From assembly GCA_004367505.1 (NCBI GenBank), contig SFCB01000260.1, positions 1-64,000 of the forward strand: a stretch of DNA of 64,000 bases. Direction: 5' to 3'. The position numbers and the translations under genes were made by a program. Positions 4,049 to 29,566 of this stretch are shown one piece after another. Origin of the DNA: Chloroflexi bacterium OHK40 (GTDB taxonomy: Bacteria; Chloroflexota; Chloroflexia; Chloroflexales; Chloroflexaceae). Within the stretch, counting starts at the first letter, position 1; each line of letters starts with the position of its first letter. The notes under the pieces were generated by a model, which had not been told where the DNA came from, searched no databases, and was given only the letters and a program-made list of their open reading frames with translations.

Positions 4049-7000
4049 ATGCGCTCCGTCGTTCGTCTTGCCCAGGGCTACGTTGCCCTCGTCGTCGTCA
4101 TCGCACTCCTGCTGATCGGTTCCGCGCTGGTGTTGCAGCAACAGGGCGATGAGCAGGCACGCTACGCGGAGCTCCTGAATGTGAGTGGCCGCCAGCGGAT
4201 GCTCTCGCAGCGTATTGCGCTTTTTGCTTCCCTCCTGGCGACTCCGGATTCTGAGGTGAGCCGCGACGTGGCCCGCCGGGAGTTACGCCGCGCTGCCGAT
4301 GAACTGGAGCAGGCGCACCGCTGGCTCACTGGCACGGCGCCGGGTAGCCCGAGCCCCCTTTCGCCAACCCTCGCCGCCGTGTACAGTGCGCCGCCCCACC
4401 AGCTCGACCAGCGCTTACCGGCGCTGATCGCCGACGCGCGCCTCGTTGCGGCCCTTCCCGACACCGATCTGGCCGCCGGGCATCCTGCGGTTGTGCGGGT
4501 GCGCACGGCTAGCCTGGAGCTTCTCCCCGGCCTTGAGGCCGCCGTGGCGGCCTACGAGGCCGAGGGCAAGGCGGTCAGCGAGAGCCTTCGCCGCACAAAG
4601 TCCGCGATCTACACCCTTACGGCGTTGGCCTTGCTCCTTCAGGCGTTTCTCGTGCTACGCCCCTTGCTGGAACGCCTTTCGCAGGAAGCGCAGCAGGCAG
4701 CCATGCTGGCGCTCGTCGCCCGTTATACCGACAACGGCGTGGTGATCGTCGATGGGGCCGGTATGATCACCTGGGTGAACGAGGGCTTTATGCGCCTGAC
4801 CGGGCTCAGCCGGGCTGAGATCCACGGGCAGCCCGCGCTGGCCTGGCTGGACGGCTCCGCCTGCGACAAGGCGATCCGGGAGCGGATCGGCCATGCGCTG
4901 CGATCCGGCCAGTCGCTCAGGGAAGAAGTCGTAACTCAGCACCGCGATGGGCGCCAGCTCTGGCTCGCGCTCACCGTGAGCCCCATCCACGACGCCCGCC
5001 GCAACCTGTCGCTGATGATCGCCTTTGATATGACGGCCCAGCGTGAGGCCCAGGCTGCCCTGCGGGCCAGTGAGGCCCGTTACCGGACGGTCGTCGGGGC
5101 GCTGAGCGAGGGCATCGTGTTGCAGGGCGCCGATGGGGCCATCCAGGCCTGCAACCCGAGTGCGGAGCGGGTGCTCGGGCTGAGCGCCGACCAGCTCATG
5201 GGGCGCACCAGCGTCGATCCGCGCTGGCACGCCGTGCGCGCCGACGGCTCGCCTTTCCCCGGCGAGGATCACCCGGCGATGGTGGCACTCTGCACCGGCG
5301 CCCCCCAGGAGGGGGTGGTGATGGGGGTGCAGACACCCGACGGTGCGGAGCGCTGGTTGTGGATCAACTCCCATCCGCTCTTTGAGGAAGGCGCAACCCG
5401 GCCCTACGCCGTGGTCTCCTCGTTTACCGACATTACCGCCCAGCGCCGGGCCGAGGCCGATCTGCGCGCCAGCGCCTCGATCTTGCGCAGCTTCTTCGAT
5501 AGCACGACCCACATGATGGGCGTTGTTGAGCTGCTCGACGACGATATTCTGCATATCTCCGACAATGCCGCGACCGCCCGATTCTTCGGGCTGCCAGCAG
5601 ATCAGACTTACCCCTTCCGCGCGAGCGAGGTCGGGGTCCCGCGCGAGCACATCCAGTACTGGCTCGGCCACTACCGCGACTGCGCCAGCCGGGGGGGGCC
5701 GGTGATGTTCGAGTATCAACACGCCACACCCACCGGCCCCCGCTGGCTGTCGGCCACCGTGACACCGATCATTGACCATGCCCAGCCCTCTCCCCGGTTC
5801 GCCTACCTGGTTGAGGATGTGACGCTCCGCAAAGAGACCGAAGCTGCCTTGTATGAGAGCCAGCGCTTTAACGAGCGGATCACCGCTGCCAGCCCCAATA
5901 TTATCTATGTCTATGATCTGCGAACACAGCGGAACGTGTATGCAAACCGTGCCATCGCCAGCGTTCTTGGATACACCGTGGCAGAGACTCAGGCGCTGGG
6001 CGAGGAGCTTTTGCCTACGATCATTCACCCGGACGATATGCCCCGTGTCAACGCCTTCCATCAGGAGCTGATTGCCACCGGCGAGGGCGAGGTCTGCTCA
6101 CTCGTCTACCGTGTGCGTCACGCCGACGGGAGCTGGCGCTGGCTGCTCAGCCGGGAGACGATCTTCGCCCGCGACGAGCACGGTGTGCCTATCCAGAAAC
6201 TTGGCGTCGCGGAGGATATCACCGAGCGCAAGCTCGCGGAGGACCAGCTCCGCGAGGCGAAGGAGCAGGCCGAGGCGGCCGTGCGGGCCCAGTCCGCCTT
6301 TCTGGCGGCGATGAGCCACGAGATCCGCACCCCCATGAATGGCGTGATCGGGATGACCGGGCTGCTCCTCGATACGCCGCTCACGCCCGAGCAGCGTGAG
6401 TATGTCGAGACGGCCCGCCGGAGTGGTGAGGCGCTCCTGACGATCATCAATGATATCCTCGATTTCTCCAAGATCGAGGCCGGGAAGCTCGATCTGGAGG
6501 AGCTTGATTTCGACCTGCGTCGAGTCATCGATGATGTGCTCGACCTCCTGGCCGAGCCAGCCCAGCGCCAGGGCCTGTACCTCGAGGCGCGGGTTGCCCC
6601 GGATGTGCCACGCTGGGTACGGGGCGACCCCGGCAGGCTTCGCCAGGTGCTGACGAACCTCGTCGGCAATGCGGTCAAGTTTACCAATCAGGGCGGGGTG
6701 CGGGTGCGGGCCGAGCTGGCCGAGGCTGGGACCAATGGGCTCACGCTGCGGATCGCGGTGAGCGACACTGGCATCGGCATTCCCGCCGAGGCTCAGTCAC
6801 GCCTCTTCCAGCCCTTCACCCAGGCCGATAGCTCGACGACCCGGCTCTACGGGGGCACCGGCCTTGGCCTGGCGATCTGCCGCCAGTTGATCACCCTGAT
6901 GGGTGGTACAATCGTACTCCAGAGCGAACTGGGTGTCGGCTCAACCTTCAGCTTCACCGTACGGCTTCGCCCTGCTGTCCAGCCCCTCTTTGATGATATG

Positions 7001-11838: not shown

Positions 11839-14106
11839 ATGCGACAGGACCAGATCATCATCCGTGGCGCCCGCGAGCACAACCTCAAGAACGTCTCACT
11901 CGCCATTCCCAAGCGCCAGATCACGGTGTTCACCGGTGTGTCGGGCTCCGGCAAATCCTCGCTCGTCTTTGATACGATCGCCGCCGAGGCGCAGCGCCAG
12001 CTCAACGAGACCTTCACGACCTTTGTGCAGGGTTTCCTCCCCCACTACGGCCAGCCCGATGTCGACGAGATCGTCCACCTCAATGCCCCGATCATCATCG
12101 ACCAGAAGCGCGTCGGCGGCGGCGCACGCTCCACCGTCGGTACCTACACCGACATCGCCGCGTTGCTGCGCCTGCTCTTCTCGCGGGTAGGCCAGCCCGC
12201 CGCCGGGCCGGCGTTCGCCTTCTCCTTCAATACGCCCCAGGGGATGTGCCCCGAGTGTGAGGGCATCGGCAAGACGGTGCAACTCGACCTTGATCGTTTG
12301 CTCGACCGCTCGAAGTCGCTGAATGGCGGCGCTATTCTCCACCCCGACTTCAAGGTCGGCAAGTGGATGTGGAAGCTCTACGCTCTCTCGGGTCTCTTCG
12401 ATAACGACAAGCCCATCCGGGACTACAGCGACGACGAGCTCCAGGCTCTGCTCTACGGCGCCGACCTGAAGGTCTCCTTTGGCGAGTTCAGCGCCAGCTA
12501 CGAGGGCCTTGTCGAGCGCTTCACCCGGGTCTACCTGAAGAAGGACACGGCGGCGATGTCCGAGCGCAACCGTGCCGTCTTCGAGCAGTTTACCACCAGC
12601 CAGATCTGCCCGCGCTGCCAGGGCGCCCGGCTCAACGCGGCTGCACTCGCCTGTCGCATCAACGGACGCAACATTGCCGAACTCGCCGATCTGGAGGTGA
12701 CCGAGCTGATCACCTTCCTGGAAGGGTTGACTGACCCGCTCGCCGCGCGGCTGGCCGCCGCGCTCGTGGAGCGGCTGCGGCACCTGGTGGAGATCGGGCT
12801 CGGCTACCTGACCCTCAGCCGTGAGACTGCCACGCTCTCCGGGGGCGAGTCGCAGCGGGTGAAGATGGTTCGACACCTTGGCAACAGCCTGACCGAGATG
12901 CTCTACATCCTCGATGAACCAAGTGTGGGCCTCCACGCCCGGGATGTCGCCCGCCTCACCGGGCTGCTGCGCAAGCTGCGCGATAAGGGCAACACGGTAC
13001 TGGTAGTCGAGCACGATCCGGACGTGATCGCCATCGCCGACCACGTGGTTGACATAGGCCCACGGGCGGGCGTCCACGGCGGCGAGGTGGTGTTTGAGGG
13101 CAGCTACGCCGATTTGATACGGGCCGCAACACTCACCGGCCGGGCACTGGCCGGGCACCTGCCGCTTAAGGATCGTGTCCGGCAGCCCACCGGCTACCTG
13201 ACGATCCGCGACGCCACGCTCCATAATCTTCAGCACATCACCGTGGACATCCCCACTGGCGTGCTGACGGTGGTGACGGGCGTGGCCGGCTCGGGCAAGA
13301 GCACGCTGATCAACGAGGTGTTCCTGACTCAGCACCCGGAGGCGATCGCGATCGACCAGGCGCGGGTGGGGGCCAACAGCCGCTCCGCGCCAGCGACCTA
13401 CACCGGCATCATGGACGAGATCCGCCAGGCCTTCGCCCGGGCGAGCGGCGCTAATCCTTCGCTGTTCAGCTTCAACTCGGCGGGTAGTTGCCCCACCTGC
13501 AACGGCCTGGGCATCGTCTATATGGATCTGGCCTTCATGGAGGGGATCACGACGACCTGCGAGCACTGCGAGGGCAAGCGCTTCCGGGCCGAGGTGCTGG
13601 AGTACCGGCTTCGCGGCAAATCGATCAGCGATGTACTGGAGATGACGGTGGAGGAGGCGCTGGCCTTCTTCAGCGAGAAGCGGATCCGGCCGGTGCTCCA
13701 GGCCATGTACGACGTAGGGCTGAGCTACTTGCGGTTGGGCCAGCCACTGAGCACGCTCTCCGGCGGCGAGGGGCAGCGCCTGAAGCTGGCCACCGAGCTG
13801 CATAAGCGGGGCAGCATCTACGTGATGGACGAGCCGACCACCGGCATGCACCTCTCCGACATCGGCTTGCTGATGGCGATCGTCAACCGGCTGGTGGACG
13901 CCGGGAACACGGTGATCCTGATCGAGCACCACCTGGACGTGATCGGGCAGGCCGACTGGGTGATCGACATGGGGCCGGAGGGTGGCAGCAAGGGCGGGCG
14001 GGTGGTTTTCAGCGGTACGCCGGCGGCCCTCTGCCAGGCCGAGGGCTCGTACACCGGTGTTCACCTGGCGCGCGCCGTGGGCCAGCGCCCCACGCATCCC
14101 GCCTGA
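11839..14106 (+). CDS. UvrA2/DrrC-like excinuclease ATPase paralog
   Basis: 755 aa; two Walker A sites ([25 protein letters not shown]), ABC signatures TLSGGESQR and TLSGGEGQR, zinc-binding CPECEGIG and CPTCNGLG; shorter than canonical UvrA. Confidence 0.88.
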
Positions 14107-20558: not shown

Positions 20559-20594
20559 CGCCGTAGGGACGCCGCGCGCAACGTCCCTACGGCG
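20559..20594. terminator. Strong intergenic hairpin between the MBL gene and mobA
   Basis: Perfect 13-bp stem CGCCGTAGGGACG/CGTCCCTACGGCG with 10-nt loop, 4 nt after the MBL stop. Confidence 0.6.
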
Positions 20595-20597
20595 TCG

Positions 20598-22067
20598 CTA
20601 TAGCGGCACGGTGAGTGTGTAATCAATAAATCCCTCGCCGACAGTGAAGGTGGCCGCCTGGGCCTCGGCGAGCAACTCGCGCTCATCGTCGAGGAGCGCG
20701 TCGGGGGTCTGCTCCAGACACGATCCGGGGGCCGGCGCGAGCGGCGGCGGGATGGGGTGTTCACGGTCGGAGATGATCAGGCGCCCGCGCGTGCGCTCGA
20801 TCAGCGCCTTGAAGAGCGGCTGGTGGGGCCAGGTCTGACATTTCCAGATCCCGCTGGCCCGGGCGATGTTGAGCGGGATCATCGCCACCAGATCGGGGCT
20901 GCGCATCTTCTCCAGGCCCCTGGCTCGGAGGGTAGCGTTGACGCTGCCGTGGTGGCCGACCTTGTAGAACACGGTGCGAGCAAGGAGCTCGTCGCCCCGT
21001 GTTGGGCGTGGCGTGCCGTCGGGGCCGGGCACCGTAAAGCTCAGGTCACCCCAGGAGAGCCAGCTTCCCACCTGGGCATCGCCGGGGAACAGCAGCACCT
21101 TGCCGCTCGCCACCAGTTCGATGGCGAGCACCAGGCTGGTATTGTTGGTGGCGTTGTCCAGATCGAGCGCGAGGGCACTGGCGATGTCGCCCATCACATC
21201 ATCGATTCGCCGCCAGGCTTGCTCGGGCGGGCCGTAGTAGTGCCGCGCGAAGAAATCGAATGTCCGGGCCTCCTCTTCACGAAGGCCATAGGCTTCCTCG
21301 AAGGGCGCATAGGGATCGGCGCCGGGGTCGCCCGCGTGCTCCAGAGCGGCGAAGAAGCTCTCGGCGAGCTCGGCGCGGCGCCGCAGAGCGTACACTGTGT
21401 CGGCCCCGTCGTCGCGCTCGGCGGCGTAAAGCAGGCTATTCTGCGGCGGGCCGAGCACGTAGAAGCGCACGCCCGGTAGGCCGGGCAGTTCGATCAGGTC
21501 GCCGGGCTTACAGTAGCGCGGGGTGGGCGCGACCCGGTCGCGCAGGTAGCGCATGGCTCGCTGCGGCCCCGTCTCCGTGTCATCGGCGGCGAGGGCATCC
21601 GGGTCGTCCACAAAACCCAGCAGACCCTCCAGCGCCTCGCGCGTGGTGGGGCTCAGTGTATCGCCCGAGCGCTTGAGGAAGCGGGCGAGCTTGCTGGCGC
21701 TGCGCAACTGCTGCTCGCGCAACACCTCGCCGACCGGATGGCCGGGCTGCTCCGTCCAGGCCATCCAGACCTCGCCAATATCGATGCGATCCCACTCATC
21801 GCGGGCGACATTGAAGCCCGAGAGGTGATCGCCGTGCTCGTGGGTCGCCACCACCACGTCCACCTTGCCACGGCGCCCGCGCCCTCTGGTGGCGGCGATA
21901 ATATTGCGCACGGCGTCGCGGAGTGGCTCCTCACGCGATCCGGCGAAGAGACCGCAGTCGATGACCATGGTAAAGGGCGGCTCGCCAGTCCGGGTGAAGG
22001 TGAGCAGGAAGCAGTCGCCGAGGCCCTGGCGATACATGCGGATGCGTACGTTGAGCTGGCCGGACAT
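20598..22067 (-). CDS. ComEC-like MBL-fold metallohydrolase (stand-alone)
   Basis: GLGDCFLLTF N-terminus, VVVATHEHGDHLSGF (HxHxDH), KVLLFPGDAQVGSWLSW, FYKVGHHGSVNAT. Confidence 0.82.
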   Translation of the reverse strand: MSGQLNVRIRMYRQGLGDCFLLTFTRTGEPPFTMVIDCGLFAGSREEPLRDAVRNIIAATRGRGRRGKVDVVVATHEHGDHLSGFNVARDEWDRIDIGEVWMAWTEQPGHPVGEVLREQQLRSASKLARFLKRSGDTLSPTTREALEGLLGFVDDPDALAADDTETGPQRAMRYLRDRVAPTPRYCKPGDLIELPGLPGVRFYVLGPPQNSLLYAAERDDGADTVYALRRRAELAESFFAALEHAGDPGADPYAPFEEAYGLREEEARTFDFFARHYYGPPEQAWRRIDDVMGDIASALALDLDNATNNTSLVLAIELVASGKVLLFPGDAQVGSWLSWGDLSFTVPGPDGTPRPTRGDELLARTVFYKVGHHGSVNATLRARGLEKMRSPDLVAMIPLNIARASGIWKCQTWPHQPLFKALIERTRGRLIISDREHPIPPPLAPAPGSCLEQTPDALLDDERELLAEAQAATFTVGEGFIDYTLTVPL

Positions 22068-22147
22068 AGCGGTTCTCGTTGGGAGGCTTTCAGAGAGCGT
22101 GATCGTCAGGGGCCGATCGCTGATCGTGGAGGCGTCGCCAGCCAGCT

Positions 22148-24118
22148 TCAGAGGTCGCGGTGCAGCAGCGCAAACGGCTCGATCGCGGCGTTGAGCTCAC
22201 CAGCGTAGGTCTCGTGGAGGGTGAGGTCGGGCGGCCCGTTGAGGACGTAATCCACCTGGCGCGCGAGGCGGGTTTCATCGAGGATCGACTTGGCGATCGC
22301 GTAGCGCACCCGGCCCTGGCCGAGGTCGATAATAAAGGTGCAGCCGCCCCGGAAGCGAATGGCACGACCAGCGGCGGCGAGGTGGCGCCGCTGCTGGGTG
22401 ATCTGGATCACGAGCTGGTTGAGGATGGTGGCGCCGGGGCCGATACGTTGGGCCGGCCAGAGGGCGTGGACCTCGAACCGGGGGTTGCCCGACTTATCGA
22501 GGTTGAACTCCTCCAGCAGCTCGGGCCGAGCCTCGAAGGCGCGGTTCTCGCGGGTGAGGGCGAGGCCAGTTAGCTCCGAGGCGTCCAGATCGCGGATCAG
22601 CGCGCGGTACTTCGGATCGCTCAGGGCCTCCTTGATGAAGTTGTGCAGCTGCCCGCGAGTCACCTCCGTCTTACGAGCCGCCTCCATCCGGTCGGTCTGG
22701 TAGCTGGCCTCGTGAGCAAAGGACTTGAGCAGGGGGTCAATGATCGGCTCGAAGATCCGGAAGGCGGCCGGGTCCACGATCGGCCAGCGCACGCTTTCCA
22801 CGGAGAGCGATCGGACGCCCTGGGGGTAGATTCCCCGGCGGCGAAAGGCCTCGACGAAGGCCACCCGGTACTCGAAGCTGTCCTCGGGCACCAGGTCGAA
22901 GTCGGCGGTGATCAGGGCGCGCAGGAAGTCGCCGAAGGTGGTATCGATCGGCAGCATGTAGTCGATCGCGCGGATGCAGGCGTTGAGCACGTGCTGGGCC
23001 GCGCGGGCGGCCTCATCGGCGAGGCGGTTGGTGAGATCGGGGTGCAGCGCACCGCCTCGGAGCACACCGGTGCCGTCGGAGGCGATCCGGATCAGGTCCT
23101 CCACGCGCCGCCGGTAGATCGTGAGGAAGGCATCGAAGACGGCCGCCACCAGGATGGCGCCGCGCTTATGGGGGGTAAACTCGCGCTGGTAGGCGCCCGG
23201 GTCGAGCGGCAGCGGCTCCCAGGCACCGGTCTGCGGGTTGCGGTAGCCGATCGCGCTGCGCAGCGCGCCATTACGACCGGTGGCCTGGCCGAACTGCTGG
23301 GCGAGCTCACCCAGGAGATTCTGCTGGGCCAGGTCGCCACGGGTGCGGGCGATCTGGTGGCGCAACACCTCCGGAAAGGTGAAGTGCTGCATGAGGGCCA
23401 CAATATCGGCGAAGGCCTCGTGGAAGGCGCGTACGTCGGGGTTGGTGGGCTCGATCAGCCGGCGGTGTACACCGTCGAGCAGGGCGTGGGCCGTCTCATG
23501 GGTGATGATATCGTGGGAGAGGCAGCTGAAGATCGTGCCGCCGGGGAGTTGGGTGCCGGCGTTCAGGCTGGAGGCGGGGAAGTAGCCGAAGAGCAAAGCC
23601 ACCTTTTCCGGGCTGTAGTAGGCGTTGGATGAGCGCAGGGCGTGGGGGTAGATCCGCAGCCTGGCCACCGGCTCCTCTCTGGTGTAGGTGTAGCCATCGC
23701 TGGTGACGGCGCGCACGAAGCGAGGGCGCCAGGTGGCGCGGCGGCCGAGGGCCCGCTCGAAGTTGTGGATGGTCGTCATGGCCACGGTGTAGACGTACTG
23801 CTGGTGAAACTGGGGGCTGCCCTCGGAGGGCGGCAGGCCGTCCTGGGCTAGCACCAGCGGGTCATCGAGGGCCACCGGCTCGTAGCAGCGCCGGCTGGCC
23901 GGGTCCACATCAACAACCTCCAGGTACTCACCCACCGGGCCGGGCTCCAGCCGCTCCCAGGGCACCTTGAACATCACCTCATTGATCTCGACGGTGTCAA
24001 CCTGGGCGGAGAGGCTCGGGTCGAAGGCGTAGCCGCGCAGGTAGCGGTGGGGTGGGCGGGGGATGCGCAGGCGCCAGCGCTGGGGTGCGCGTTCGGGCTC
24101 TTCCGGGCTCATCGTCAT
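22148..24118 (-). CDS. Uncharacterised 656-aa protein with HExxH gluzincin-like metallopeptidase motif
   Basis: HDIITHETAHALLDGVHRRLIEPTNPDVRAFHEAFADIVALMQHF: HExxH followed by EAFAD, as in M4-like gluzincins. Confidence 0.7.
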   Translation of the reverse strand: MTMSPEEPERAPQRWRLRIPRPPHRYLRGYAFDPSLSAQVDTVEINEVMFKVPWERLEPGPVGEYLEVVDVDPASRRCYEPVALDDPLVLAQDGLPPSEGSPQFHQQYVYTVAMTTIHNFERALGRRATWRPRFVRAVTSDGYTYTREEPVARLRIYPHALRSSNAYYSPEKVALLFGYFPASSLNAGTQLPGGTIFSCLSHDIITHETAHALLDGVHRRLIEPTNPDVRAFHEAFADIVALMQHFTFPEVLRHQIARTRGDLAQQNLLGELAQQFGQATGRNGALRSAIGYRNPQTGAWEPLPLDPGAYQREFTPHKRGAILVAAVFDAFLTIYRRRVEDLIRIASDGTGVLRGGALHPDLTNRLADEAARAAQHVLNACIRAIDYMLPIDTTFGDFLRALITADFDLVPEDSFEYRVAFVEAFRRRGIYPQGVRSLSVESVRWPIVDPAAFRIFEPIIDPLLKSFAHEASYQTDRMEAARKTEVTRGQLHNFIKEALSDPKYRALIRDLDASELTGLALTRENRAFEARPELLEEFNLDKSGNPRFEVHALWPAQRIGPGATILNQLVIQITQQRRHLAAAGRAIRFRGGCTFIIDLGQGRVRYAIAKSILDETRLARQVDYVLNGPPDLTLHETYAGELNAAIEPFALLHRDL

Positions 24119-25599
24119 GGCGTCGGCTCCGTGGGTGTGGCAACGAGGATGTGAGCGCCCCAGGCGGGCACGTCGACGAAGAGCCCCTCAGCTTGCAGGC
24201 TGTCGCCCGGGTGGGTGAGGAGCAGGTCGTTCAGGGCGTCGGCGAGTTGCCAGCGACGGCCGGCAAGCTCGGGCCAGGGCAGGGCGATTCGGCCCTGGGC
24301 GGGGGCGCCGCTATAGTTCACCACGATGGCGGCCCAGGTGGTGGGAGCGGCCCAGCCCCAGGCGATCAACTGCTCGGCGCTCCGGTTGTCCTCCCAGCCG
24401 GATACATCACAGCGCCGCCACTCGCCCTCGCGCAGAGGTGGGAGGCGCAGGGCGGCGAGGAGTTGGCGATAGAAGGCGGCGATCTCCGCGTCCGGGGGCT
24501 CGGCGGGGCGGCGCCCAAGAAAGACTGGCACGCGCACCCGGCGGCCCTCTAGCTGGCCCTCGTGGATGAGGCGCATGCCGGCCTGCGTGAGGACGGCCAC
24601 GGCTGCCGCGCGCTGGCGCTCACCGAAGACCGTTGCGGCGCGGGGCTCGTCGTGGTTTTCGATGAAACGCACGAGCCGGCGCTGGTAGTCCGGGTCGGCG
24701 TGGAGGTGGCCGCGCACGCTCGCGGCGCCCTCGTGGGCCAACCGGTCATAGAGACGCTTGTCGTAGCAATAGTCGAAGCCGAGCTGCTGCAGCGCCCACT
24801 CGCGGTCCCAGTAAGCCTCGGCCACCCAGACGAAGGACGGGTGAGCCGCGCGCACCGGAGCCATCACCTCGGCCCAGTATTCCGTGGCGGGCGGCGGGCC
24901 GGCGCGCTCGCCCCAGGTCTGGGCGAAGATGTCGTTCATCACCAGCATGGCCATATCACAGCGCACCCCATCGCACTGAGCGGCAAGATCGAGCAGGGTC
25001 GCGCTGGCGGCGGCGCGGAGGCCAGGGTCGAAGGCATTCAGCTGCACAACGTCGCCCCAGGGGGCGAAGTAGGGGTCACGGCCACGGGCGAGCACGGCGC
25101 GGCCAACGCGTAGGAACTCGGCCGGGGCCCGCTCCAGGTCGGCGGCATCACCCTGAATGAAGAAGGCGGGGTGCTCCGTTGCCCAGGGGTGGTCGGGGGC
25201 CACGTGGTTGGGCACGAAGTCGAGCAGCAGGCCGAGGCCACGGGCGGCGAGGGCCGCGCGGGCGGCGGCGAGCCCGGCCCGACCGCCCAGGCGCTCATCG
25301 GCCTCGTAGCGGCGTACGCAGTAGGGCGAGCCCACGACATCGGCGGGACCCATGCCCGGCAGCGCGTGGCGCAGATCGGTCATCAGCGGCTCATCGGCCA
25401 GGGCGATCGCCAGGCCGGCCGGGCTGCGCTCCCATACCCCCATCAGCCAGACGGCGTCGGCCCCGGTTGCCGCCAGCTCGTCCCAGGCCCTGGCCGGGAC
25501 CTCAGCCAGGCTCAGTGGGGCGCCGTGGCCGCCGGCGAGCTCGGCCAACCAGACCCAGGTATTGACCTCGTAGACCAGCGGCTGTGGCGGAAGCGGCAT
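24115..25599 (-). CDS. GH13 alpha-amylase family glycosidase
   Basis: LLLDFVPNHVAPDHPW, CDGVRCDMAMLV, FVWVAEAYWD, FIENHDEPRA; 4-bp ATGA overlap with the downstream peptidase gene. Confidence 0.88.
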   Translation of the reverse strand: MPLPPQPLVYEVNTWVWLAELAGGHGAPLSLAEVPARAWDELAATGADAVWLMGVWERSPAGLAIALADEPLMTDLRHALPGMGPADVVGSPYCVRRYEADERLGGRAGLAAARAALAARGLGLLLDFVPNHVAPDHPWATEHPAFFIQGDAADLERAPAEFLRVGRAVLARGRDPYFAPWGDVVQLNAFDPGLRAAASATLLDLAAQCDGVRCDMAMLVMNDIFAQTWGERAGPPPATEYWAEVMAPVRAAHPSFVWVAEAYWDREWALQQLGFDYCYDKRLYDRLAHEGAASVRGHLHADPDYQRRLVRFIENHDEPRAATVFGERQRAAAVAVLTQAGMRLIHEGQLEGRRVRVPVFLGRRPAEPPDAEIAAFYRQLLAALRLPPLREGEWRRCDVSGWEDNRSAEQLIAWGWAAPTTWAAIVVNYSGAPAQGRIALPWPELAGRRWQLADALNDLLLTHPGDSLQAEGLFVDVPAWGAHILVATPTEPTP

Positions 25600-25919: not shown

Positions 25920-27287
25920 TCAGCCACTCTGGGCTGTACTGCCCATCACCCGCTGCTCGGCCGCCCGGGTGGCCGCGTCCTCGTGGGGAATGCGGGCCGG
26001 GTTCACGCCGAAGAGGCCGACGATCAACTGCTCCAGGGAGTGCTGCAGCACGCCAAAGGAGTAGTGGCGCCTACCCAGTTCGTAGTTGTGCTCGGCCATC
26101 TGCTGGCCGATCGCGGGGCGCTCCAACAGCGCGCGCACCTGCTCCACGGTATCGTCGGTGATGAAGCCGTCGAACTCGACTACCTGGAAGCCCTTGGGGC
26201 GGATGTCGTAGGCGTAGATCGAGTAGCTATTGACCACCAGGGGCCGCCGGAAGTAGACCGCTTCCAGGAAGGCATTGCCGAATCCCTCCATGGTCGAGGG
26301 GTAGGTCACCAGGTCGGCCTGGGCGTACACATCGTCCAGGGTGTAGATCTTGCGCCCGTCAGGGGTGGTGCCGCGCGTCGGGGCTACCAGGTCACCCACC
26401 AGAGCCAGCGGCACCTCCAGCAAAGCGGCGTAGTCCCGCACGCGCCGGACGTAGCTATCACCCTCATCGCCACCAGCGTGGGAGATCACCAGGCGGCAGC
26501 GCAGGCCGAGGCGGGCCAGGCGGTGCAGCAACTCGATCGCATGCTCAATCCCCTTCCGCTGCACGATCCGTGTGGGCTGGAGGACCATGTACTCATCCGG
26601 CGCCAGGCCCAGGTCGGCCCGGAGGGTCTGGCTGTACTCGTCGGGCGGCGCGGGTGGAGCCTCGAACTCCATCACATTGGGGATGAGCAATGAGGAGACG
26701 CCGGCGCGCAGGCTGAGTTGGTGGGCGCCGGAGCTGTTGATCACTACGTGGCGGATGGAGGGCAGCTGGGGTGGGAAGCACATATTCAGATAATCCCACG
26801 CGCATCCGCTGAGAAAGCGCTTGCGCTCCCAGAAGAAGTCGTGGTGGTGCCCGATCGTCGGGAAGAGCGTCTCGCTGATAAACTCCGTCAGCGCCACGCC
26901 CAGTGGGAGGTTCATCGGGATAGCCAGCGCGTTCTCGACGATCAACAAGTCCACCTCGAAATCTCGCACGAAGGCGTAGAGCTGCTCCTTGAGGTACTGT
27001 TGCAGCTCCCGGATCAGCCGCGAGATCGCGGGTGGGCGGCGCGTCTCGGTAAAGATGGCATCCTGTACGACGCGCACCTGTGGGTGCTCCCAGAAGGCCT
27101 CCGGCACGACCCGGCTCTGTTCCGCGGGCAGGTTCGAGAGGCCCGAGAAGTAGCAGCAACGGTGCCCCATTGCCTCCAGCACGTCGGCCCACTTGGCCGT
27201 CTCCAGCGAGACCCCGTCGGTACCTGCGAAGCGCGTGGAGACGAAGCCGATCCGGCGGCCAGTGGGGGTGCGGGCCGAACTGCTCAT
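25920..27287 (-). CDS. Glycosyltransferase family 4 protein
   Basis: GFVSTRFAGTDGVSLETAKWADVLEAMGH, VLQPTRIVQRKGIEHAIELLHRL, YPSTMEGFGNAFLEAVYFRRPLVV. Confidence 0.9.
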   Translation of the reverse strand: MSSSARTPTGRRIGFVSTRFAGTDGVSLETAKWADVLEAMGHRCCYFSGLSNLPAEQSRVVPEAFWEHPQVRVVQDAIFTETRRPPAISRLIRELQQYLKEQLYAFVRDFEVDLLIVENALAIPMNLPLGVALTEFISETLFPTIGHHHDFFWERKRFLSGCAWDYLNMCFPPQLPSIRHVVINSSGAHQLSLRAGVSSLLIPNVMEFEAPPAPPDEYSQTLRADLGLAPDEYMVLQPTRIVQRKGIEHAIELLHRLARLGLRCRLVISHAGGDEGDSYVRRVRDYAALLEVPLALVGDLVAPTRGTTPDGRKIYTLDDVYAQADLVTYPSTMEGFGNAFLEAVYFRRPLVVNSYSIYAYDIRPKGFQVVEFDGFITDDTVEQVRALLERPAIGQQMAEHNYELGRRHYSFGVLQHSLEQLIVGLFGVNPARIPHEDAATRAAEQRVMGSTAQSG

Positions 27288-27348: not shown

Positions 27349-29385
27349 TCAGAGCAGCGTTTTGTCCACGTAGCACCATCCCCAGCTCTCCCCCGGCTCC
27401 AGCGAGCGGACCACCGGGTGCTCCGTCTCGTGGAAGTGGCGTGTGGCGTGCTTGTTCTTCGAGGAGTCGCAGCAGCCCACGTGACCGCAGATCATACAGA
27501 CCCGCAGGTGGACCCATGTGTCTCCCATGCGCAGACACTCCTCACATCCGTCGGTCTTCGGTACCACCTCGCCGAGCCCCACCGCGTGGGTGCATCCTCT
27601 GGCCTGGCCCGCCGTCGGGCTCAGCGCCACGGGCCTGCGGGCTGCTCCATTGCTCATCGCGCGTGCCTCCGCGACGTAGGCGCCAACTTCGACCGCCTCC
27701 AGTTCGTAGTCACCCATCACGCGCCCGAGGAGCGCCGTGATGCTCACCTCGTCCTCGGCCACCACCCGTTCGGCCCCAGCCGCTTCGAGCTCGCGGGCGT
27801 CCTCCCCGGTGCGCGCCCGCGCCATGATCCGCAGGTCGGGCCGCATGCCCCGGGCCACGTTAATTACCCGGTGGGTCATGGCCGGGGTATCGTCGGCCAC
27901 GACGAGCAGACGGGCCCGGCGGATCCCAGCCTGCTCCAGCACGTGCTGGCGGGCGTAGTCGCTCCGCAGCACGCGCAGGCCCTTCGCCTCCGCCTCGTTC
28001 GCGCCGCCCGGGCTGAGGGTCAGCACGCCGTAGGGCACCGCCGCATCATGAAGCGCGCTGGCCAGAGCGGCGCCCGCCGGGCCGTAGCCGGCGATGATGA
28101 CGTGGTCCTGCAGGGCCCCGAAGGCCTCGGCGTGGGCCGGGTCGCCCGGGTCGTCCTCGGGGATGGCCGGGTCGGCTTTGCCATCTAGCTTGCGCTGCAG
28201 CAGGCCCCCGAGTTGCGCCAGGAACGGCGTGAGGATGATCAGCACGACGGTGGCGGCAATGAAGGTCTGGGTGCCAGCCTCACCCATCCCGAAGGGTGTC
28301 AGGCCTAGCTCACGACCGCTGCGCTCGAGCACGAGTGAGAACTCGCCGATCTGGGCGAGCAGCAGCCCCACGAAGCCCGCTGTGCCCGCGCCGTAGCCAA
28401 GCGCGCGCACACTCAGCGCCGTGGTGAGCAGCTTGAGCAGCACCGTCCCGGCCACCACACCGAGCACCAGGGGCAGGTTGAGCATCAGGGAGCTGAGATT
28501 GAGCAGCAGGCCCACCGAGACGAAGAAGGTTGCGCTGAAGAGTACCTGCAGAGGCAGGATCTCGCCGAGGGCGTAGTCGCGGAAGCGGGTGTCGCTCACC
28601 ACCAGACCCGCCAGGAAGGCCCCCAGCGAGAGGCTCACGCCCGCCAGGCTGGTCAGGTACGCCGTGCCGAAGCAGATCGCGACCACCGTGAGCAGGAAGA
28701 TCTCCTGGGAGCAGGTGCGCGCCACCGCCTCGATCAGTGGTGGCATAACGCGGCGGGCCACCACCAGCACGGCGGCGATCAGCAGGCCGGCCGTGCCGAG
28801 GGCCTGCAGCACGCCCCAGGCCGAGCCACCATCGCCGCCGAGCATCGGCACCAGCAGCACCATCGCCACCACGGCCAGATCCTGAAAGATCAGCATGCCC
28901 AGGCTGATCTGCCCAGCCTGGGTGTCGGTCTCGCCACGGCTCTCAAGCAGCTTCATGACCACGGCGGTGGACGAGAGGGCGAGCAGGAAGCCGGTGAAGA
29001 CCGCGATCTGCCAGGGCAGGCGGAAGAGCGCCAGCAGCGCCACGCTGATCCCCACCACGAGCAGCACCTGTAGCCCCCCGCCCACGAAGATCAGCCGCCG
29101 GATGCGGGCCAGCTGGTCGAGGCTGAACTCAAGGCCGATCGTGAAGAGCAGCAGGATGATGCCGATCTCGGCCGTGGCCTCGATCAACGCCTGGTCGCGT
29201 ACGATCCCGAGGGCGTTGGGGCCGAGCAGCACGCCGGCCAGCAGGAAGCCGACAATCGGGACGAGGCCGAGGCGCTGGGCGAGGTAGCCGAAGAGTGCGC
29301 CGATTGCGAGCAGGGCGGCCACCTCCGGGAGAAACCCGAGCGGCGACTCGCCTGCGGCGAGGGGCAGAAACTGTGCGAGATCCAT
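27349..29385 (-). CDS. CPA2-family cation:proton antiporter with TrkA-N domain and C-terminal UBP-type zinc finger
   Basis: Multi-helix Na+/H+ exchanger-like N-terminus; VIIAGYGPAGAALASAL TrkA-N; C-terminus CTHAVGLG...CEECLRMGDTWVHLRVCMICGHVGCCDSSKNKHATRHFHETEHPVVRSLEPGESWGWCYVD. Confidence 0.9.
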   Translation of the reverse strand: MDLAQFLPLAAGESPLGFLPEVAALLAIGALFGYLAQRLGLVPIVGFLLAGVLLGPNALGIVRDQALIEATAEIGIILLLFTIGLEFSLDQLARIRRLIFVGGGLQVLLVVGISVALLALFRLPWQIAVFTGFLLALSSTAVVMKLLESRGETDTQAGQISLGMLIFQDLAVVAMVLLVPMLGGDGGSAWGVLQALGTAGLLIAAVLVVARRVMPPLIEAVARTCSQEIFLLTVVAICFGTAYLTSLAGVSLSLGAFLAGLVVSDTRFRDYALGEILPLQVLFSATFFVSVGLLLNLSSLMLNLPLVLGVVAGTVLLKLLTTALSVRALGYGAGTAGFVGLLLAQIGEFSLVLERSGRELGLTPFGMGEAGTQTFIAATVVLIILTPFLAQLGGLLQRKLDGKADPAIPEDDPGDPAHAEAFGALQDHVIIAGYGPAGAALASALHDAAVPYGVLTLSPGGANEAEAKGLRVLRSDYARQHVLEQAGIRRARLLVVADDTPAMTHRVINVARGMRPDLRIMARARTGEDARELEAAGAERVVAEDEVSITALLGRVMGDYELEAVEVGAYVAEARAMSNGAARRPVALSPTAGQARGCTHAVGLGEVVPKTDGCEECLRMGDTWVHLRVCMICGHVGCCDSSKNKHATRHFHETEHPVVRSLEPGESWGWCYVDKTLL

Positions 29386-29566
29386 ACGCTCCTTCGTTTG
29401 CCTGATACCGGCGTGGAGGCCGGCGGCCCAACCCCCGCTGTGTAGCATACTCCGGGACCACGGCGGCGGCAACTGCCCGAATCACCGGGCGGGCGGGCGA
29501 GCCGGCAACTGATGGTACAATAGAACGAGGAAAGAACCCGAGCCCATCAGGACGCCGCGCCGCCCT

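Follow-up and report, generated by a model that had tools for sequence, protein, structure and literature searches.

A mobile metallopeptidase–MBL gene pair in Chloroflexi bacterium OHK40, possibly encoding a protease-gated nuclease

The locus

The window analysed here comprises the first 64,000 nucleotides of contig SFCB01000260.1 from Chloroflexi bacterium OHK40. On its minus strand, three genes follow one another: a GH13 glycosidase-like gene (24115..25599, 494 aa), a gene for a predicted M4-like (gluzincin) cytosolic metallopeptidase (22148..24118, 656 aa), and a gene for a ComEC-like MBL-fold hydrolase, a presumed pro-nuclease (20598..22067, 489 aa). The stop of the GH13 gene and the start of the peptidase gene overlap by 4 bp (ATGA at 24118-24115), and the MBL gene lies downstream of the peptidase gene after an intergenic gap of 80 bp; genes, strand, overlap, gap and coordinates were all found as given in the initial annotation. 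With a third-codon-position GC content of 0.84-0.89, all three genes look coding. A foreign base composition of the peptidase–MBL pair was not seen, its tetranucleotide distance being below the window median. The GH13 gene product matched PF00128 (1.3e-7), with the catalytic D/E/D of the alpha-amylase domain present (GVRCD, VAEAYW, ENHD).

A hairpin with a 16-bp stem (-36.8 kcal/mol, 70-nt segment) lies 4 nt past the MBL stop, and no T-run follows it. The initial annotation had it close the unit; the hairpin is real, but its palindrome (20563..20590, without strand) belongs to a dispersed element with five copies in the genome, the core GTAGGGACG...CGTCCCTAC being present at five sites, against none for a reversed control pattern. 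The hairpin alone is therefore no marker of the end of a dedicated unit, and its candidacy as a dedicated terminator is weakened. The palindrome is possibly a REP-like element.

The two proteins of the pair

The peptidase carries the HExxH zinc motif HETAH (residues 207-211, 23486..23500, minus strand), followed by HEAFAD (residues 233-238, 23405..23422), which contains the presumed third zinc ligand E234 together with D238, at a spacing close to that of M4-type gluzincins, and by H317 (23168..23170), the presumed equivalent of the catalytic His of thermolysin. H207, E208, H211, E234, D238 and H317 are invariant across 31 homologues. A hydrophobic stretch was not seen at the N-terminus, which agrees with the earlier remark that the protein has no visible signal peptide. 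Sequence searches returned no match to the M4 domains of Pfam at E <= 1, no matching NCBIfam or PADLOC family, and in the PDB only a sub-threshold match to a neutral protease; one homologue carries the annotation 'peptidase M4'. For a 10-row AlphaFold model (mean pLDDT 66.5, pTM 0.77), the best solved structures in Foldseek were aureolysin and thermolysin (E 8e-4 to 2e-2, probability 0.99-1.00). Given the HExxH...E...D plus His layout and the predicted fold, both of which it has in common with these M4 enzymes, we take the peptidase for a divergent M4-like gluzincin of the cytosol, in which H317 would act as the catalytic His. It differs from thermolysin and aureolysin in having neither a Pfam M4 match nor a visible signal peptide, in its low identity to them (~10%), and in its additional N- and C-terminal regions. 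Thermolysin-like metallopeptidases are otherwise known chiefly as secreted enzymes. Foldseek also matched the model weakly (probability ~0.1) to NTF2-like or CaMKII-hub folds; these matches might point to an oligomerisation domain but were given no weight as evidence.

In the MBL protein, the metal motifs THEHGDH (residues 75-81, 21825..21845, minus strand) and GHHGS (residues 371-375, 20943..20957) are intact, so that both hydrolases retain their metal-binding residues, as had been noted. HxHxDH, GDA and HHGS are conserved in about 30 homologues, the MBL of locus L031 having no exact HHGS match; further conserved residues are WTEDP (104-108), PF (255-256) and WR..D (285-289). The closest solved sequences are ComEC nuclease domains, which bears out the likeness to ComEC first reported, and the best of them aligns in two stretches (MBL profile 9-85 and 316-405 versus chain 4-77 and 146-222). 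The MBL domain of ComEC is a nuclease (PMC8579336). Compared with this C-terminal domain, with which it shares the core motifs, the MBL of the window stands alone, shows no visible export signal and is longer by about 160 residues between HxHxDH and NNxS. These extra residues flank the LGPP strand on both sides, as insertion 1 (residues ~111-178, 21534..21737) between HxHxDH and LGPP, and insertion 2 (residues ~209-300, 21168..21443) between LGPP and NNTS, each a candidate gating loop. In the structural model (mean pLDDT 66.1) the core is modelled confidently; over most of insertion 2 the pLDDT is below 50. Judged by its sequence, the protein is ComEC-nuclease-like with two large insertions, and its putative activity is the cutting of DNA.

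Matches to defence-associated MBL families were low-scoring or partial: the match to Avs1a (NF041809) gave 18.8 bits and did not reach the curated cut-off of 420 bits, the protein also scored far under the curated cut-off of 6A-MBL, and matches to LmuA were partial. An Avs1a-like MBL encoded beside a subtilase (genome G175, locus L092) has the same insertion layout with a shorter insertion 2. At this locus (L092:1155-3113), as at L031:1-2751, an MBL gene, Avs1a-like or other, comes immediately after the subtilase gene, which suggests a further type of protease–nuclease pair.

Conservation, spread and neighbourhoods

With profiles of both proteins, the analysis covered 33 loci in which the peptidase was matched strongly. 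The MBL gene comes immediately 3' of the peptidase gene, on the same strand, in 32 of them, and the gap, measured in 30 loci, has a median of 1 bp. The MBL gene is split over frames in two of these 32, and in the sole unpaired locus, L078, the peptidase is itself frame-broken. The initial annotation had proposed the two genes as a coupled pair and had named the co-occurrence of their homologues as the test; with this search, the pairing held. As near-copies are present (L029/L030, L025/L069, L002/L003), the 33 loci do not equal 33 independent events; pair loci span six phyla, namely that of the window, Acidobacteriota, Pseudomonadota, Bacteroidota, Deinococcota and Planctomycetota.

The distances among peptidases and among MBL proteins co-vary, with a Mantel r of 0.92 over 30 loci, the best of 2000 permutations reaching 0.40. 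When 301 genomes of the window's phylum were searched separately with the two proteins, close homologues of both were found in the same four; likewise, all 30 plasmid records that matched the MBL also carried the peptidase. Of 60 close relatives one has the peptidase, and on the tree the peptidase of the window groups with one from a Hymenobacter plasmid, homologues from its own phylum being scattered. Peptidase and MBL genes thus form a real, conserved and mobile (horizontally spread) two-gene module.

Genome G278, from the window's phylum, has a distant peptidase relative only, and the distant relatives at L018-L024 are likewise without an MBL, so that the pairing defines a clade inside a wider peptidase family. 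L019-L024 are six viral contigs (the largest 390 kb) with distant relatives of the peptidase domain, in several of which a ferritin-like gene lies nearby; viral relatives of the MBL were looked for and none were found. The phage record MT836994.1 ('Bacteriophage sp.', 9.5 kb, human faeces) contains a peptidase stretch at 4702-5901 that is 47% identical.

On plasmids, a further hydrolase gene frequently adjoins the pair on one side or the other. A patatin is the partner in nine pair loci, and in six (L004, L026, L028, L032, L034, L071) the peptidase carries an N-terminal subtilase fusion; a Tle1-like lipase (DUF2235) lies near the pair in four loci (PF09994 at L072), a PLD at one (L077) and a caspase at one, and a C39-like gene adjoins L007. 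The type of partner switches repeatedly on the peptidase tree, with at least five changes for patatin. The third gene is thus not a constant enzyme of one pathway: other loci fill its place with unrelated hydrolases.

A scan for PADLOC families at a threshold of 1e-10 gave 122+193 (315) for 221 neighbours of the pair and 9+26 (35) for 226 control genes, taken far from the pair on six of the plasmids that carry it, a ratio that overstates the number of systems because many PADLOC models overlap. Recognisable near the pair were Hachiman (L029, L030), CBASS (L030, L070) and Septu-type genes (L070), and in the control stretches one Shedu locus and Iet-type matches. The conflict role on which the initial annotation had speculated is now backed by these plasmid neighbourhoods. 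As the sensor of the pair in L029/L030, Hachiman was rejected and judged a neighbour, because Septu-type genes occupy that place in L070, a sister plasmid, and because the HamA of L029/L030 carries no fusion and has a GESK motif.

In two Hymenobacter plasmids (L025, L069), the gene immediately before the peptidase encodes an AAA/SMC-like ATPase. When L025 was scanned singly, its ATPase was LmuB-like (E 2.5e-20) and its MBL LmuA-like (5e-10), which recalls Lamassu, with its LmuB and LmuA effectors; ATPase, peptidase and MBL in a row (L025:4496-10363, L069:5577-11351) give a Lamassu-like arrangement with a metallopeptidase. Most pair loci, in contrast, are without an LmuB-like gene, and none is found among the scanned neighbours in the window, where an ABC-ATPase (11839-14106) lies about 6.5 kb from the pair on the other strand. 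Around the pair in the window lie genes for PEP carboxylase, a MobA-like protein, a glycosyltransferase and an antiporter; in this metabolic setting the pair has no local defence island, and no sensor is visible in the window.

A gated nuclease and the alternative readings

We favour, with a probability of roughly 0.55, reading the pair as a mobile conflict module, likeliest anti-phage, whose insertion-gated MBL nuclease would be freed through cleavage by the M4-like peptidase. The MBL would be a ComEC-type DNA nuclease kept inactive by the two insertions beside its active site; upon a trigger, the cytosolic metallopeptidase would cut these insertions, and the freed nuclease would degrade DNA, so that the infected cell is stopped or killed. 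At other loci, the exchangeable third hydrolase (patatin, subtilase, Tle1-like lipase or PLD) would supply a second activity. Occurring in several phyla and often by antiviral plasmid genes, the pair is probably a self-destruct switch. Counted against the gated nuclease were the metallopeptidase class, the upstream place of the peptidase gene, the sensor not found, the low Avs1a and 6A-MBL scores, the partial LmuA matches, the metabolic context in the window, and the mean pLDDT of ~66.

According to the main text of Tuck et al. (PMC12799240), MBL nucleases with two insertions stay inactive until cut by a trypsin-like protease, for which the evidence is in vitro for Hachiman, and from mutants and western blot for AVAST; in Canu, of the caspase type, CanAB activates CanC. 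There, proteases of 'other diverse families' are said to accompany related MBL nucleases. The main text nowhere uses the terms metalloprotease, metallopeptidase or thermolysin; as it refers for these families to a supplementary figure, a metallopeptidase type may already be seen there.

Set against the systems as described in that text, the pair resembles Hachiman (HamM), AVAST (Avs1a), Lamassu, DRT and Canu in that a ComEC-type MBL gene adjoins a protease gene, and its insertions sit where the gated pro-nucleases of HamM, Avs1a and Canu type have theirs. Also in common with the gated pairs are its exchange between genomes and defence settings and its location in plasmid defence islands. The protease gene is upstream of the nuclease gene, as in Canu, whereas in the trypsin-type pairs the MBL is upstream and the protease fused to a sensor; here, no HamA-like sensor fusion was seen, an extra exchangeable hydrolase occurs at other loci, and the protease is M4-like rather than trypsin-like or a caspase. 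Most likely, the pair is a protease-gated immune nuclease of the known kind in a new form, its protease belonging to an unusual class. If so, these nucleases would gain thermolysin-like metallopeptidases as a further protease class, a function would be given to a peptidase family without a Pfam, NCBIfam or PADLOC match, and the changing partners would suggest one protease–nuclease core combined with interchangeable lipases and proteases. It is conceivable, at rather long odds, that the peptidase activates two zymogens, the MBL pro-nuclease and the exchangeable third hydrolase, which would make this a stand-alone multi-effector immunity outside the described families.

Among the rival readings, one would have the pair process or deliver toxic hydrolases against other bacteria, or act in their immunity. 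It could draw on the Tle1-like PF09994, PLD and C39-like genes mentioned above, on annotated neighbours (cell wall hydrolase, amidase, GH25, peptidoglycan-binding gene) and on the N-terminus of the L007 peptidase, which is PG_binding-like by eye. At the pair, however, neither signal peptides nor genes for secretion or immunity were seen, the commonest partners are patatins and subtilase fusions, and the neighbours are enriched for anti-phage families, so that we consider antagonism unlikely. We are similarly doubtful of housekeeping or stress proteolysis, in which the substrate of the MBL would be RNA or a small molecule, and a co-transcribed but unrelated peptidase would bring no activation step. 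MBL folds serve many different chemistries; phosphorylcholine esterase and lactonase are among the structures that Foldseek matched to the model of the MBL, and the surroundings are metabolic in the window and at several genomic loci. Such a role fits poorly with the patchy distribution (4 of 301 genomes), the scattered phylogeny and plasmid carriage, and with near-perfect pairing alongside a changing third partner.

The three-gene operon of the initial annotation, with the glycosidase as a functional component, is very improbable: the 4-bp overlap speaks for it, and the variable third hydrolase elsewhere would allow GH13 to be the version of the window's lineage, but none of the 33 other pair loci has a GH13 homologue, even at E <= 1, and a protein search found relatives at 57-62% in five related genomes, all without the peptidase. 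Four such regions have no orthologous neighbours in common with the window, the sole matches being generic response-regulator and histidine-kinase genes. The unit as first drawn was right for peptidase and MBL and wrong for GH13, which, missing from the other loci and found elsewhere without the peptidase, looks like a resident gene that abuts the pair as a bystander and is perhaps co-transcribed with it. Among the other neighbours in the window, the glycosyltransferase (25920-27287, family 4) also matches Pfam GT4-conflict, just over the cut-off, and the antiporter (27349-29448) is a Na+/H+ exchanger that also has TrkA_N and, at its C-terminus, zf-UBP, a ubiquitin-hydrolase zinc finger that is unusual for a bacterial antiporter.
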